64,000 bases of DNA from Chloroflexota bacterium. Lineage in GTDB: Bacteria > Chloroflexota > UBA11872. Positions 13,114-19,109 of this stretch are shown piece by piece. A program made the translations under genes and the position numbers. Each line of letters starts with the position of its first letter. Position 1 is the first letter of the stretch. The stretch spans positions 1-64,000 of the forward strand of contig JAJDZD010000065.1 in assembly GCA_022824865.1 (NCBI GenBank), given 5' to 3'. The notes under the pieces were generated by a model. The model saw nothing but the letters and a program-made list of their open reading frames with translations. It did not search any database and was not told where the DNA came from.

Positions 13114-13784
13114 GTGGACCTACCCACGGGCAGCAGGTTGGCGCGCAGCCAGTCGTGGATGTCGCGCATGTTTTCGAAGGCATGGTAGGGAATCCGTTCG
13201 AGCTTGCAGCGCTCCGCCAGTTGGGATCGGGCAAACAGCAGATCGGCGGCTTGCGCGGCGGCCCAGTCACTCATGCCGTCACCGGCGTAGGCGACGCGCC
13301 AGTCCTGGGCCTGCAGCGCCCGGACCGGTCCGGCTTTCCAGCCGCCACGGGGATCGTGTCCGGGGCGCTCATGCGGGAACTCGAGCCTGATCAAGCCATT
13401 GCGGAAGAAGAGCCGGTTGGATTGAAATTGCAGCTCAGACAGGCCCGCTCGGGTGAGCATTGGCTTGACGTAGGCGTCGAAGCCGTCGCTGACGACCTCA
13501 GCCGGGATGCCGTGCTCCCTGAGATCAGCGACCAGCGGCGCGAATGCTGGGTCTATGGCGTATTGGTCGATGAGCCGTTGAAACTCGTGCTCGCGAGCAT
13601 CCACAAGCGCGAATTGGCGGTGGGCGCGTTCGCTGGTGGGGATTTCGCCGCGGATCCATTCGTCGTCGATGTCGCGCCAGGTTGGGTTTGCGAAGGCGTC
13701 GAAGATGACGTGGCCCATGTCGTTGGGGGAGATGGTGCCGTCAAAGTCGAAGACGAAGGCCCAGCGGGCGGCTGTGTCGGTCAG
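13110..13784 (-). CDS. HAD phosphatase, MtnX/SerB-like (CTG start proposed)
   Basis: The product is a HAD-superfamily phosphatase of about 224 residues. The first ATG (13718) falls after the catalytic motif. The frame upstream of it encodes FVFDFDGTISPND, which contains the nucleophile Asp and the acid/base Asp, so translation must start earlier. No ATG, GTG or TTG occurs there. A CTG at 13784, overlapping the pcrA stop (CTGA) with GAGG seven bases upstream, is the best candidate. Motif II is EVVSDGFD, and motif III/IV is RVAYAGDGMSDWAAAQAADL. Substrate is unknown: the fold suggests small phosphomonoesters, while its place between helicase and ligase genes hints at nucleic-acid ends. Confidence 0.8.
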   Translation of the reverse strand: MTDTAARWAFVFDFDGTISPNDMGHVIFDAFANPTWRDIDDEWIRGEIPTSERAHRQFALVDAREHEFQRLIDQYAIDPAFAPLVADLREHGIPAEVVSDGFDAYVKPMLTRAGLSELQFQSNRLFFRNGLIRLEFPHERPGHDPRGGWKAGPVRALQAQDWRVAYAGDGMSDWAAAQAADLLFARSQLAERCKLERIPYHAFENMRDIHDWLRANLLPVGRST

Positions 13785-16015
13785 ATCACGGCCTCGAGCT
13801 TGGCGTAGCTGACGGCCAGCTTCTTGAGGCCTACCTCGCCCCCGAACATGACGGTGACTTCCTCGTCGAAGTTGGTGATCTGTCCGGCGACGATCAGGCC
13901 TTCGCCGAAGACCGGGTGACGGACGCGCTGGCCGTCGTGATAGGTACGTTCAGTGGGTGGCTGGGGCTGATCGTCGTCATCGTCGACGCCGAAGCCGGAA
14001 GCCAGGACGGTGGGCCGGGCGTCGAGGCGGCGCCGATAGGTGAGCCGCTCCGTCGGAATGTCCTGAAGGAAACGGGACGGGAATCGCACAGGGGCGCCCC
14101 AGCCGGAGCGGTGGCGGGTGTAGGTGAGGAATAAGCGGTCCTTGGCGCGGGTGAGCGCCACGTAGGCCAGGCGGCGCTCCTCGTCCATCTGGGCGGGCTC
14201 GTCGTAACTGCGGGCGTGGGGGAAGAGCTCTTCCTCCAGGCCGACGAGGATCACGACGCCGAATTCGAGACCCTTGGCCGAGTGGGCCGTGAGCAGCGTG
14301 ACCGCGTCGCCGCCGGTTGCCAGGTTGTCGACGTCTGCAACCAGCGCGGCTTCGCTGAGGTAGCGGGACAGGCTTTCGCGCGGGCCGAGGCCGTCGTACT
14401 TGGAGGCGGCGGTCTGAAGCTCGACTACGTTCTCCCAGCGTTCCTCGGGGCTATCGGGGTCGTTGTCGAGGACATCGTCGTAGCCGGATTCGCGGACGAC
14501 GGCGTTGACGAGGCCGCCGACGGGCACCTCGTCGGCCAGGGTGTCCAGGCGGCGCAGGAGACGGCCCAGCTCGATCAGCGCCCGCGTGGCGCGGGTGGGC
14601 AGCGGGTTGTCGAGTGTGTGCTGGACCGGCTGACCCGAGTCGGCGTCGGCGGCCAGCAGGCGCGTGAGCTCGCCCGACGAGCGACTGGTGTTCTCGGCCC
14701 ACTCGCGGAGGACCTGGAGGGTCTTGGCGCCGATGCCGCGGCGCGGGGTGTTGGCAATGCGCTCGAAGCTGACCAGGTCGCGGGGGTTGGCAATGGCCCG
14801 CAGGTAGCCCAGCACGTCGCGCACTTCGCGGCGTCCGTAAAACTCAGTGGCGCCCACCAACTGGTATGGCAGACCCTGGCGGACAAACCACTCCTCGAGC
14901 GGCCGCGACTGGGCGTTGGTGCGGTAGATGATGGCGATGTCGTGGTTCGGGATGTCTTCGCCACGCAGTTCGCGGATGAGGTTGCCGACCTGGCGGGCTT
15001 CGTCGTCTTCGTCGAAGGCTTCGATGATCTCGGGCTGTTGGCCGTCGTCACGCTCGGTCCACAGGGTCTTCTCGGCGCGGTTGGCGACCTTGGAAATGAC
15101 GGCGTTGGCTGAAGCCAGGATGTTGCCCGTGGAGCGGTAGTTGCGTTCGAGGCGGATGACGCGGGCGTCGGCGAACTGGGCTTCGAAGTCGAGGATGTTG
15201 CGGATATCGGCGCCGCGCCAGGTGTAGATGCTCTGATCGTCGTCGCCGACCACGCAGACGTTGCCCCGGTCCGCAGCGAGTTGCCTGACGAACTCGTACT
15301 GAGCGCGGTTGGTGTCCTGATATTCGTCGACCAGGATGAAGCGGTAGCGGTCCTGGTAGAAGGCGCGGAGATCGGGGAACTCGCGGAAGAGGCGGACGCA
15401 GAAGGCGATCATGTCGCCGAAGTCGACGCCGTTGGCGCTGTCCAGCAGCCGCTGGTAGCGGTGGTAGACCTGCGCCACGGCTTCCTCGAAGTAGCCCTCG
15501 GAACGCTCGGCGTAGACGAAGGGATCGGCGAGTTCGTCCTTGGCTCTCGAGATGGCGTTGCGGATGGCGACGGGGCTGATGGTGGTGAGGCCGATGCCGA
15601 CGTCGCCCATGGCCTGCTTGACGAGGCGCAGTTGGTCGTCCGCGTCGTAGATGGTGAATTCGGGCTCGCGTCCCAGGTGGTGGATGTCGCGGCGGAGGAT
15701 GCGGAGGGCCTGGCCGTGGAAGGTGCCGACATGGACGCCGGCCGCCATCCGGCCGACCAGGTCGACGATGCGCTCGCGCATCTCGTTGGCGGCTTTGTTG
15801 GTGAAGGTGACGGCCAGGATGTTCCAGGGGGCGACGCCGGCGGCGATGAGGTTGGCGACGCGGCAGGTGATGACGCGGGTCTTGCCGGAGCCGGCGCCGG
15901 CGAAGACGAGCAGGGGGCCGTGGACGTGGTCGATGGCGGCGCGCTGCTGGTCGTTCAGGCCGCTGAGATCGAGGGGCAGCAGGCCGGCGGCCTGGGGGTG
16001 GTGGGTGGCGCTCAC
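13781..16015 (-). CDS. pcrA: UvrD/PcrA-family DNA helicase
   Basis: This 744-residue superfamily 1A 3'-to-5' helicase acts in repair and in removing protein roadblocks. Motifs seen: LNDQQRAAI (Q motif), FAGAGSGKTR (Walker A), GTFHGQALRILRR (Ia region), LVDEYQDTNRAQ (motif II), VVGDDDQSIYTWRGAD (motif III), LERNYRSTGNIL (motif IV), TAHSAKGLEF (motif V) and YVALTRAKDRL (motif VI). The C-terminus has the PcrA-type Tudor-like end VRHPVFGEGLIVAG. I chose the GTG at 16015; the longer frame upstream runs through a repeat element. It is the first gene of a coupled pcrA-HAD-lig operon. Confidence 0.93.
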   Translation of the reverse strand: MSATHHPQAAGLLPLDLSGLNDQQRAAIDHVHGPLLVFAGAGSGKTRVITCRVANLIAAGVAPWNILAVTFTNKAANEMRERIVDLVGRMAAGVHVGTFHGQALRILRRDIHHLGREPEFTIYDADDQLRLVKQAMGDVGIGLTTISPVAIRNAISRAKDELADPFVYAERSEGYFEEAVAQVYHRYQRLLDSANGVDFGDMIAFCVRLFREFPDLRAFYQDRYRFILVDEYQDTNRAQYEFVRQLAADRGNVCVVGDDDQSIYTWRGADIRNILDFEAQFADARVIRLERNYRSTGNILASANAVISKVANRAEKTLWTERDDGQQPEIIEAFDEDDEARQVGNLIRELRGEDIPNHDIAIIYRTNAQSRPLEEWFVRQGLPYQLVGATEFYGRREVRDVLGYLRAIANPRDLVSFERIANTPRRGIGAKTLQVLREWAENTSRSSGELTRLLAADADSGQPVQHTLDNPLPTRATRALIELGRLLRRLDTLADEVPVGGLVNAVVRESGYDDVLDNDPDSPEERWENVVELQTAASKYDGLGPRESLSRYLSEAALVADVDNLATGGDAVTLLTAHSAKGLEFGVVILVGLEEELFPHARSYDEPAQMDEERRLAYVALTRAKDRLFLTYTRHRSGWGAPVRFPSRFLQDIPTERLTYRRRLDARPTVLASGFGVDDDDDQPQPPTERTYHDGQRVRHPVFGEGLIVAGQITNFDEEVTVMFGGEVGLKKLAVSYAKLEAVI

Positions 16016-16020
16016 GGGCG

Positions 16021-16026
16021 ATTCTA
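16021..16026 (-). promoter_or_regulatory. Candidate -10 element of pcrA, leaderless type
   Basis: On the minus strand TAGAAT ends five bases before the pcrA GTG start. Transcription would begin at or within a base or two of the start codon, giving a leaderless message. No Shine-Dalgarno sequence is visible. No good -35 is obvious. Confidence 0.35.
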
Positions 16027-16081
16027 GGGCACCTGTGGAGAGCGGGTCGTGGGGCGCGAAATGGGGCGGGTTCGCGCACGT

Positions 16082-16105
16082 AAGAGTTTTTTCCAAAAAA
16101 CTCTT
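16082..16105. repeat. Perfect 11-bp inverted repeat with CC spacer
   Basis: Two perfect 11-base arms (AAGAGTTTTTT and its complement) flank a two-base spacer. The element lies about 67 bases upstream of the pcrA start. A 2-nt loop is too tight for an RNA hairpin at its tip, so a DNA operator or cruciform is as likely as a terminator. A related but less perfect element lies at 21548-21572. Confidence 0.6.
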
Positions 16106-16305
16106 GAGGCGCCGCGGGGCCTCTTCGGGCGAGGGAACGAGGAGGGCGAGCGGCGGGCGGCGGAGAGGCATACGAAGTGCGTGTTGCGGAGACATCAGGA
16201 CCAGTGTACACTGTCGGCGCACGGCCAGCAACCACCGTGGCCTGAGGCAACCGGCGAGGGACTGCGATCAGGACACGGAGGCTCGTGGCGTTGTGTTCTG
16301 CGGCG
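16093..16305. repeat. Direct repeat copy A flanking the 16.6-17.9 kb gene
   Basis: About 210 bases resemble 18005-18216 in the same orientation. Shared blocks, in order, are AAAACTCTT, CGGGCGAGGG, GCGGGCGGCGGAG, CAGTGTACACT, CCGGCGAGGG and TTGTGT(T/C)CTGCGGCG. Copies are diverged, with short insertions and deletions between blocks. The palindrome AGTGTACACT lies at 16203-16212. The rest of 16306-16591 shows no gene I can support. Confidence 0.7.
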
Positions 16306-16591
16306 TGTGTCGCTGGGAGGTGCTTGTGCCGATGCAGCGATACACGTGGACGCTTCGAAACCGGCACGTGTAGTCTCGGCGCTGGCGGAGCCGGTGAAAG
16401 CGCGTGGCTCGCTCACAGCGCCGGCAGGTGGACAGCAGTCCGACCCGAAAGTCAACGACCCTATCCAGGCAGGCGGCGCTGTCGGGATAGTCCCAGTGGA
16501 AGTCGAAGATGGGATAGGTGTTGACCATCGCAATGGTTGATCAGGTCCGGTACCCAAACGACGACATGCCTGTGCCAAGGGTAAGACCACG

Positions 16592-17902
16592 TTGAATAAC
16601 TTGCTTAGCGTTGGCTTTGCAGGCTTATTCATCGGCTGGTGGGCTGTCTATGTCGTGCCTACTCTCTTACGCCTTGCGTTTCCTGAGCTGGTTCCGCCAA
16701 TTCCTGTCTGGCTAAATGCGGATGCCAATGGCTCCCTGCCCAACCACATGTCAGTGGCAGTCCTGGCGCTGGCAGCCATCGCGCTGTTCGTTAGTGCGAT
16801 TCGCGCATCTCGAGAATCTCAGCTTGCGACAATCGGCTGGTCGATCCTGGCGGTCACCACGCTGTTTGTGTCAATTGCCGAACTCACCGACTGGCACAAC
16901 AGCCTGTTTGATTCGTGGTCTGTTCAACTTGCACCGCTGGCTGCGATTTTTGTTGTTCTATTAATTCTGTTTATATGGCGAGTTGATCATCCGCCGCATG
17001 TCCGTCTCTTGCTTGGCTTCGGGTGTAGCTTGTGGAGCATGGTTATTGTTCACGAAGCGATTCAGCCATACGCGATATCAAAATTTGGTCATTTGCCGAT
17101 AGTCATCGAAGAAACGATGGAGGTCACAGGAGCCATGAGTCTGACGACGGCAGCCTGGCTCACCTATCAGCGGCCGACAGCATTGCCGTCCTGGCGCGCG
17201 GCGACGGCTTGGTCGACCCTCGTTGTCAGCGTATGCGGTGTCATAGTTATCCTCTTTCTCTACCAAGTTCCTCTAACCAGCACGCGTTATGAAACTCCTT
17301 TGATCAGCACGCGTGACGCCTCACCCCTGGGATCCTTTCACGTTGTTTTAGAGGGATACGGAGCCCTACAGCAAGACGCACGTCGCATACCTTTTCCATC
17401 AGATCGCATTGACGTGCGAATGGGGCTTCGCGGCGAGATGGCGACGAGCGTCGAGTTGCGCGTGCTCTCAGATGCTACGGTTATTAGCGCAGGCCGTACA
17501 CACGTGCGCCCGCAAGAAGACGACTTGTCAATGCAGACATTCGTCCTGGCTCCAGTGCTCAATACGACATCCGATCAACTCAGCCTACAGTTGATCGCCC
17601 ACCTTCCTGCGGACTCGCACCTGCGAATTGGCGCAATACAAAGCAATCCTGTTGACGGACTTCGGCTACAAACAAACGGTGATCTCCAACCACCTGGGCA
17701 TCGTATTGAATACACCGTGTATTCGACTCCGGAACCAACGCGGGCGAAGCTGTCGGGGCTCTGGCACATCGCCAGTGACTGGAGACACGTGGCCACGGCA
17801 GTGTTTTGCTGGGTTTCACTGATTCCGCTGGTGGGCATACCAGCTTTTCTCATCCGTCTCATCCTTGCGACACCAGCTGGCCGTGCTCCTTTTCGGTCGT
17901 GA
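16592..17902 (+). CDS. Unknown multi-pass membrane protein, atypical base composition
   Basis: I do not recognise this 436-residue protein. It has about seven hydrophobic segments in residues 1-217 (for example 2-27, 53-70, 80-97, 113-130 and 198-217). A soluble region of about 185 residues rich in beta-type sequence follows, predicted outside the membrane, and a last hydrophobic segment lies near 405-428. The DNA is visibly richer in A and T than all neighbouring genes. The start is a TTG with only a weak upstream GGTAAG. It lies between two copies of a diverged direct repeat and has no transposase. Recent acquisition is inferred. Confidence 0.6.
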   Translation: MNNLLSVGFAGLFIGWWAVYVVPTLLRLAFPELVPPIPVWLNADANGSLPNHMSVAVLALAAIALFVSAIRASRESQLATIGWSILAVTTLFVSIAELTDWHNSLFDSWSVQLAPLAAIFVVLLILFIWRVDHPPHVRLLLGFGCSLWSMVIVHEAIQPYAISKFGHLPIVIEETMEVTGAMSLTTAAWLTYQRPTALPSWRAATAWSTLVVSVCGVIVILFLYQVPLTSTRYETPLISTRDASPLGSFHVVLEGYGALQQDARRIPFPSDRIDVRMGLRGEMATSVELRVLSDATVISAGRTHVRPQEDDLSMQTFVLAPVLNTTSDQLSLQLIAHLPADSHLRIGAIQSNPVDGLRLQTNGDLQPPGHRIEYTVYSTPEPTRAKLSGLWHIASDWRHVATAVFCWVSLIPLVGIPAFLIRLILATPAGRAPFRS

Positions 17903-18004
17903 TGACGGCGTGCGGTACGGGCCTCAGGACGTTGCGCCGGACGCCGCGCGGTAGCGGTGCGGGACAGTTGAGCCAGATAGACCGGCAGCGCGGTTGTCGT
18001 GTTG

Positions 18005-18216
18005 CCAGAAAACTCTTCGCTCACCGCCAGGCCTAACCGGGCGAGGGGGCGGCGACAGCGGGCGGCGGAGGGCGGAGGGACATGCGGCTTCCGAGTTGCC
18101 TGGTCATTTCGTCCAGTGTACACTAGATGCACACGAGGGGCAATCACTGGACGCGCAGGCAGCCGGCGAGGGGATGTGAGCGGGTCACAGGGTTTGTGGG
18201 GTTGTGTCCTGCGGCG
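18005..18216. repeat. Direct repeat copy B flanking the 16.6-17.9 kb gene
   Basis: This is the second copy of the element at 16093-16305, in the same orientation about 1.9 kb away, with the palindrome AGTGTACACT at 18115-18124. It fills most of the 328-base space between the membrane-protein gene and the transglutaminase gene; I see no other gene there. Confidence 0.7.
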
Positions 18217-18230
18217 AGCGCGTTGCGGGA

Positions 18231-19109
18231 TCAGCCCGCCGACGGCGTTGTCGGGTGGATGCGGACGTTGACGTGGAGGCGGCTTTGGCCGCCGCCGCGG
18301 AGGACGCCGCGGGTGGGGGCGACGTCCTGGTAGTCGCGGCCAACGGCGAGGCGGACGTGGCGATGGTCGGCCAGGGTGCGGTTGGTGGGGTCGAAGCCGA
18401 TCCAGTCGAGGCCGGGCAGGCGGCATTCGGCCCAGGCATGGGTGAAGGTCGACGGCGCCTGCTCGCCTTCCGCGCCGGTGACGTGCAGATAGCCGGACAC
18501 GTAGCGGGTCGGGATTCCCCAGGAGCGGGCGATGGCGATCATGACGTGGGCGTAGTCCTGGCAGACGCCGTGGCCGGTTTCGAGGATGTGGTCGATGGGA
18601 GAGATGACCGAGGTGCTGCCGGGGCTGTAGGTGAAGGTGTCATGCAGCGCGTCGGACAGGCAGCGCAGGCTCCGGAGTGGATCGTCTCGAACACGGATTT
18701 CGCACCGGCGCGTGAAGGCGGAAAGGGCGGGCGATGGCGTCGTGAGGGCGCTGGGGCGGGTGAAGTCCCAGTCGGCGAAGGCATCACGCGCGGCGTGGAT
18801 CGCCGTCCAGGCATCGGCGCCCAGCGATTCGGGCAAAAGCGGCGACGGACGAATCTCGATAGCGCACGAGGCCGAGATTGCAAGGGCGGCGTGCTCGCGA
18901 TGGAGATTGAGTACGTGCCGGGTGTTGCCGAAGGCGTCGGTCTCAACGTTGAGGGTTGATGCGGGGTCGGTGGAAACCGCGAAGCGCACAAGCCGCTGAC
19001 CGCCGTCGCCGCGCGGCTTGAGGCAGAGACGCATGACGCAGTAGCGGGCCGGCGAGGTGTAGGCGTAGCGCGATACGTGCTCGATCTCGTAGCGGACCGG
19101 ACCCGCCAT
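18231..19109 (-). CDS. Transglutaminase-like cysteine peptidase/transferase
   Basis: This 292-residue protein has the N-terminal bacterial transglutaminase domain (YEIEHVSRYAYTSPARYC) and the transglutaminase-like core. The catalytic triad is visible as Cys183 in GHGVCQDYAHV, His224 in FTHAWAEC and Asp240 in GFDPTN. No signal peptide is seen, so it is probably cytosolic. It is the last gene of a three-gene operon with an alpha-E protein and a circularly permuted ATP-grasp, separated by four bases. In this conserved neighbourhood it is thought to act on a small peptide made by the ATP-grasp enzyme; that role is not proven. Confidence 0.9.
   Translation of the reverse strand: MAGPVRYEIEHVSRYAYTSPARYCVMRLCLKPRGDGGQRLVRFAVSTDPASTLNVETDAFGNTRHVLNLHREHAALAISASCAIEIRPSPLLPESLGADAWTAIHAARDAFADWDFTRPSALTTPSPALSAFTRRCEIRVRDDPLRSLRCLSDALHDTFTYSPGSTSVISPIDHILETGHGVCQDYAHVMIAIARSWGIPTRYVSGYLHVTGAEGEQAPSTFTHAWAECRLPGLDWIGFDPTNRTLADHRHVRLAVGRDYQDVAPTRGVLRGGGQSRLHVNVRIHPTTPSAG

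Follow-up and report, generated by a model that had tools for sequence, protein, structure and literature searches.

The stretch of DNA analyzed here (the window, 64,000 nucleotides of contig JAJDZD010000065.1 in the Chloroflexota assembly GCA_022824865.1) contains an AT-rich membrane-protein gene bracketed by two copies of a repeat, which we call E. The genes and features of the locus, by position in the window, are the following.

13781–16015, minus strand: pcrA/uvrD helicase gene (PF00580 and PF13361), downstream of E1
16013–16195, minus strand: possible leader frame that opens at ATG 16195, crosses the hairpin and shares the reading frame of pcrA
16082–16325, minus strand: E1, the dispersed-element copy in front of pcrA, with a 69% match to E2 and a counterpart in relatives
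16082–16105: E1 end hairpin AAGAGTTT-TTTCCAAA-AAACTCTT, intact, of the type that serves IS1595 landing elsewhere
16184–16231: E1 dyad core TTGC-N15-AGTGTACACT-N15-GCAA, exact
16304–16528, minus strand: predicted IS1595-family transposase remnant (N-terminal zinc-ribbon part), truncated beside E1
16592–17902, plus strand: AT-rich gene for a membrane protein of 436 aa, listed start TTG
18005–18216, minus strand: E2, second element copy, hairpin decayed, separating the 3′ ends of the membrane-protein and transglutaminase genes
18096–18143: E2 dyad core, exact
18231–19109, minus strand: transglutaminase-like gene (PF01841 and PF08379), on the far side of E2

The probable start of pcrA, as read from the sequence, is the GTG at 16015, with a TAGAAT just 5′ of it at 16021–16026. 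A first-pass annotation had described two repeats of about 210 bases in the same orientation, flanking a gene of different base composition, and both descriptions are borne out. In a search of the window's own genome (G000), E1 (16093–16320) and E2 (18005–18216) align in the same orientation with 69% identity (E 3.6e-17). The flanked gene has a GC content of 0.547 and a GC3 of 0.56, compared with GC3 values of 0.79–0.91 for the four neighbor genes across the genomes compared and 0.81–0.89 in G000, where pcrA has 0.89 and the transglutaminase gene 0.86. The comparison set comprised 13 genomes of the genus (G000 and 12 others) and 28 genomes outside it.

The membrane protein has seven hydrophobic segments by hydropathy and a beta-rich stretch predicted by a low-confidence single-sequence structure model (mean pLDDT 46.6). 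Its best Pfam match, to 7TMR-DISM_7TM, falls below the cut-off (E 0.0071), NCBIfam returned no match, and the PDB yielded one chance-level sequence match (E 0.026) and none with a profile. Homologs form a multicopy family with no named Pfam or NCBIfam family above cut-off; G002 alone has 11 matching stretches, and three homologous genes stand in a row at 1604900–1609455 of its contig C1. In the three genomes that carry the gene at this locus (G000, G005 and G009), its GC3 is 0.56–0.60 and its dN/dS 0.22–0.31, the latter indicating purifying selection, and the G005 copy has an in-frame TAG near codon 200. Its dS is 0.43 for G000–G005, 0.57 for G000–G009 and 0.64 for G005–G009. The corresponding values for the transglutaminase gene are 0.62, 0.53 and 0.31, and other neighbors in the same genomes gave 0.37 (pcrA), 0.81, 0.85 and 0.75 (alpha-E) and 0.54 (the ATP-grasp gene, G000–G009). 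The membrane gene is thus roughly as diverged as its neighbors, which argues that its import is old. Because its dS is larger for G005–G009 than for G000–G005, the opposite of the transglutaminase gene, its descent appears not to have been simply vertical.

The first-pass annotation had stated that the locus has no transposase, which proved wrong. Judged by similarity, an open reading frame of 86 aa at 16268–16528 on the minus strand is what is left of the N-terminal part of a transposase of the IS1595 family, in decayed form. It matches PF12760 at 16.4 bits (E 0.0091; curated cut-off 25.4), and searches of whole genomes paired it with two longer frames, an intact one of 298 aa in G000 (41%, E 7e-20) and one of 295 aa in G001 (46%, E 1e-19). 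The remnant lies between the membrane gene and E1 in G000, G005 and G009. In the window it starts about 65 bases from the start of the membrane gene, at a point where, by comparison with two intact relatives of its subgroup, the transposon would be expected to end; this would place the gene outside the transposon. A scan against the surroundings found no transposon ends above background at the membrane gene or E2; decayed ends aligned by eye there had looked promising and were not supported by that scan.

When used as a query against G000, E1 matched 15 places. The palindrome AGTGTACACT occurs 21 times in this genome (reversed control, 0), and laying the copies side by side reveals a larger dyad of 48 bp, TTGC-N15-AGTGTACACT-N15-GCAA, which on either strand reads TTGC, a 17-bp spacing and TACACT. 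Allowing up to three mismatches, there are 32 dyad cores in G000 and 11–30 in each of ten of the 12 other genus members; the remaining two, G002 and G003, have none. The 28 genomes outside the genus have 0–2 cores each, which is chance level (reversed control, 0–4). Among 84,980 species, each represented by one genome, 66 stretches contained the exact core, of which 64 came from Chloroflexota MAGs (ten bins) and two from elsewhere, set against a chance expectation of about four stretches as estimated from 257 billion bases. E1 and E2 are therefore copies of a genus-restricted dispersed element, as the first-pass annotation had suspected in taking the repeat for a dispersed family; the element is plainly not absent elsewhere in the genome. 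At the gathering score Rfam had no match in the 15 element loci, and its three matches in window positions 15900–18400 were every one below gathering. Eight of the 32 G000 cores are no more than 450 bp from the end of their contig (C5, C7, C10, C12, C16, C19, C20 and C46), a pattern that would suit assemblies breaking at the repeats or at transposons beside them.

To orient the copies, the pyrimidine-rich strand was set as the top strand, and genes were called by codon use. None of the 32 cores in G000 and none of the 64 exact cores in relatives lies inside a called gene. For the relatives' exact cores, the strand agrees with that of the downstream gene in 47 of the 53 cases with a call, and with that of the upstream gene in 32 of 57. 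In G000 core and downstream gene share their strand in 20 of 25 cases (p 0.004), a count that enters E2 as opposite, the gene caller having missed the AT-rich membrane gene (uncorrected, 21 of 25). The dyad itself contains symmetric, overlapping −10 elements (AGTGTACACT). Across the 32 G000 cores the forward −10 reads TACACT in 25 and TACAAT in seven, and the reverse −10 reads TACACT in 27 and TACAAT in none; on this comparison forward is the better-conserved direction of the dyad.

Some of the downstream genes are the same across relatives. Judged from their sequences, the downstream genes include some that look FabF-like, DapF-like, MoeA-like and ABC-transporter-like. A single regulon, for instance one for DNA repair on account of pcrA, was considered and found no support, as the downstream genes look unrelated. 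Orthologous sites were located through the encoded protein and not through the core. At fabF the core is present in eight of ten readable genomes of this part of the genus (missing in G006 and G012), and G002, G003 and G020 have no core there. At dapF it is present in seven of seven such genomes, and G002 and G022 have no core there; at pcrA it is present in seven of eight (missing in G006). Over all genome pairs, core identity compared with spacer identity is 98.6% versus 73.6% at fabF, 98.4% versus 76.8% at dapF and 92.6% versus 57.6% at pcrA. These figures use sites with at most two core mismatches; the sites left out had at least five or unreadable upstream DNA, none being intermediate, and G009 (fabF) and G007 (dapF) were omitted because the genes are cut by contig ends.

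The repeats thus resemble upstream elements that have an orientation and whose promoter-like core is conserved, and from this arrangement we infer that E acts as a promoter, supplying a promoter-like site upstream of many different genes. The element is laid out as an oriented promoter-like dyad, followed by a pyrimidine-rich leader and, in most copies, an end hairpin. To the idea that the repeats are merely low-complexity, pyrimidine-rich intergenic DNA aligning by chance we give next to no credence. The flanks are indeed pyrimidine-rich and diverge fast, but the 18-position core with its fixed spacing, the near-zero controls and a core conservation far above that of the spacer contradict it, as does the strong orientation bias.

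It is possible that a leader frame within E is translated. In the window (16013–16195, minus strand) and at the fabF loci L200–L209, a frame that begins at an ATG 7 nt past the forward −10 reads KSFLEKTL across the hairpin, and an ATG at this distance is arranged as for a leaderless mRNA. One frame is kept through the hairpin in six of the eight G000 copies that have both the ATG at +7 and an AAGAG hairpin. The frame continues into pcrA in all seven genomes with E at pcrA, with indels in threes; distances to pcrA (165, 177, 267 and 291) differ by multiples of three, as do those to fabF (251, 287, 290, 293 and 296), and those to dapF (197, 200, 228, 344 and 432) do not. No amino-acid constraint was seen on the leader frame, in which the codon positions differ equally and dN/dS is 1.16 at pcrA and 0.77 at fabF. 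The fabF leader frame of G008 meets a stop after seven codons.

Most copies of E end in a hairpin, AAGAGTTT-TTTGGAAA-AAACTCTT. Among the 32 G000 copies, the hairpin is intact within 700 nt in 17 and present as a close variant in two; a transposon end interrupts it in two more, a different, GC-rich end takes its place in seven, and four, E2 included, have neither. Locus L131 carries a variant hairpin, and L090, L093, L100, L128, L129, L132 and L133 end in a GC-rich hairpin of the CGCCAAATCTCG...GGGAACCCCTTAAGGGG type in place of the AAGAG hairpin.

IS1595 transposons use the hairpin that ends E as a landing site. This family, with its ISXO2-like transposases, makes 8-bp duplications, and some of its members carry extra genes. 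On contigs C46 of G000 and C62 of G001, an intact IS1595 transposon sits at the hairpin center with an 8-bp duplication. A search of 41 genomes that counted copies at hairpins found 21 transposon–hairpin junctions in six genus genomes (G000, G001, G006, G009, G010 and G011), none in the other seven of the 13 genus genomes and none in the 28 outside the genus (control, 0). All seven complete inserts, from six genomes, have a perfect 8-bp duplication of TTTNNAAA exactly at the hairpin center. They are 1.9–11.6 kb long, their ends are inverted repeats of at least three kinds, perfect to imperfect, and a dyad core lies in the fetched stretch for five of them, the other two being near a contig start. 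All four transposases tested (L245, L246, L271 and L273) match PF12762 at E 2e-30 or better and also match PF12760; the frames of the other three inserts, L272, L275 and L276 (320–345 aa), have similar starts. At the C4 pair of G006 the second half is not perfect, further junctions are cut by contig ends, and on C75 of G000 one IS end has a non-hairpin flank.

Two of the inserts are of note for what they carry or for their size. A DNA methylase gene (PF01555, E 5e-43) travels in the hairpin-borne IS1595-type transposon at L271 1804–3345 (G001 C45). At L276 1003–12638 (G011 C79), an insert of 11.6 kb has the 8-bp hairpin-center duplication and IS1595-like ends.

The arrangement at pcrA differs among relatives. 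In G000 and G005 the order is E, gene, transposase remnant, E, and G009 shares this filled arrangement in part, its E1 side being lost at a contig end and its E2 partial. Fetched DNA of five relatives (G001, G004, G008, G010 and G012) shows one E upstream of pcrA and no membrane gene; in G008 about 1.8 kb of contig precedes E, and in G010 the transglutaminase gene is separated from E by about 5 kb of other DNA. G006 and two outgroup genomes from the next genus, G013 and G014, have the transglutaminase gene immediately adjacent to pcrA, with neither E nor the membrane gene. G007, where pcrA is cut by a contig end, and G009 and G011, where it was not found, are uninformative for E at pcrA. The empty site that the first-pass annotation had suggested looking for in relatives is present in five genomes, with a single repeat and no gene, and the outcome that it had set against its own reading, an element absent elsewhere together with a gene vertically conserved at this place in all relatives, did not occur. 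The gap between the transglutaminase gene and E holds a further 1.5–5 kb or so of DNA in G005 (L056), G009 (L062) and G010 (L054), and these three relatives give it the look of a hot spot for insertions.

The copy of the element that belongs to pcrA itself is E1. The single E of G008, G012 and G010 is nearer E2 in its left half and nearer E1 in its right half, which is the hybrid that recombination between two copies would leave; position alone could also give this pattern. Both halves of the single E of G001 and G004 are nearer E1, which counts against E1 × E2 recombination having operated everywhere. In the pcrA tree, whose inner support is weak, the filled genomes fall in more than one part.

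Taking these observations together, we lean slightly towards an old import of the membrane gene together with an IS1595 transposon beside a second E, followed by losses that went partly through recombination between E1 and E2. The older order would have been transglutaminase gene, E, pcrA. The AT-rich gene would have entered the gap next to E2 in company with an IS1595-family transposon, which then decayed to the transposase fragment. Transposition would be the likely route of entry, given that the hairpin at the end of E is the exact insertion point for intact relatives of that transposon; the membrane gene would accordingly be the passenger of a dead transposon. At the insert in the window the E2 hairpin is decayed and the other junction unrecognizable, which would hide any 8-bp duplication. 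With the gene enclosed by two direct copies, it could be deleted by recombination between these, and such a deletion fits the patchy presence of the gene and the hybrid single copies in three relatives; on these grounds we infer that gene losses took this path. Counting against this explanation, the second full copy of E is not accounted for by a single insertion into the hairpin.

Exchange of a cassette is a less likely account, and we regard it as doubtful. Here a stretch of DNA with the gene and an E on it would have recombined with the E at pcrA to give E–gene–E, and the transposase fragment would be incidental. The two direct copies around the gene, with one copy where the gene is missing, would follow naturally, as would the three hybrids, and the left-flank wording of the G000 E2 recurs, by eye, in the E of G008, G012 and G005. 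On the other hand, the insert holds a remnant of the hairpin-using transposase family in all three filled genomes, and the arrangement has no parallel elsewhere: no other two of the 32 G000 cores lie within 10 kb on a contig, and none of eight other loci with homologs of the gene is bracketed by two cores (one core lies about 1 kb from the paralog on C72). Among the matches listed for relatives, one core pair was found, 338 bp apart on C15 of G010. A general cassette system, which we had considered, is rejected for lack of other close core pairs in G000 and of bracketed homolog loci. What the first-pass annotation had proposed, insertion or exchange of a cassette through dispersed repeats, is accordingly upheld as regards the dispersed family, the foreign composition, the single-repeat sites without the gene and the three hybrids, and not supported as regards general cassette-recombination sites.

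We consider it improbable that the gene is ancestral to the E-bearing members of the genus, with E2 a local tandem duplicate of E1, many losses, and an IS1595 element inserted later beside the gene. Such a history would agree with a dS of the order of the neighbors' dS, with the spread of filled genomes over the pcrA tree, and with the remnant start abutting the gene. However, a GC3 of 0.56–0.60 against 0.79–0.91 needs a foreign source at some time, the flanking genes stand side by side without E or the gene in G013, G014 and G006, and several losses would be required.

Beyond the favored import with a transposon at this one locus, a wider reading is plausible and, in our estimation, no firmer than tentative: E may be a genus-wide regulatory repeat, its dyad a strongly conserved promoter or operator and its hairpin a harbor for several IS1595 lineages that bring genes to fixed upstream positions, with flanking repeats that allow their clean removal.

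Several known systems resemble parts of this picture. REP/REPIN sequences are palindromes of 20–40 nt, present in high copy number and associated with a RAYT transposase. E is likewise dispersed, extragenic and palindromic, but its unit is larger, its copies number a few tens, it is oriented to genes and its core is promoter-like; a 48-bp dyad in 32 copies does not fit the REP/REPIN description. The inserts match the IS1595 family in having PF12762 and PF12760 (in the four transposases tested), inverted ends and 8-bp duplications, and differ from the family as known in using one hairpin precisely. The titles and opening abstract lines listed in our literature searches held no description of IS1595 choosing such a site. 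Insertion sequences that target REP sequences are on record, with IS3, IS110, IS4, IS256 and IS5 named in the portion consulted (Tobes and Pareja, 2006; PMC1525189), and the term IS1595 is absent from that text. As there, transposons here choose a dispersed extragenic palindrome; unlike in the REP cases described in that portion, several lineages of IS1595 share one target here, a hairpin at the end of a promoter-like element that is larger and oriented.

Bidirectional promoters with a symmetric −10 element are also known, according to the parts consulted of two reports (PMC10268837; PMC12825309), and they have overlapping −10 elements on the two strands, as does the E dyad. If transcription starts lay 7 nt downstream, those of the dyad would by our own reckoning be about 25 bp apart, at the edge of the 7–25 bp definition of bidirectionality given there. 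Unlike the promoters described in those parts, E has a symmetry that reaches both TTGC boxes, and it is a repeated, conserved unit with a better-conserved forward direction. Among papers containing AGTGTACACT, no title concerned a bacterial regulatory site, and the matches listed for sponge Chloroflexi repeats and mobile promoters included no paper on E.

The locus joins two things that are usually apart, a dispersed, conserved promoter-like element and transposons that address its hairpin. If this is true, the places at which foreign genes enter these genomes would be predictable, and in the 48-bp dyad sequence alone would have yielded a candidate regulatory site specific to the genus.
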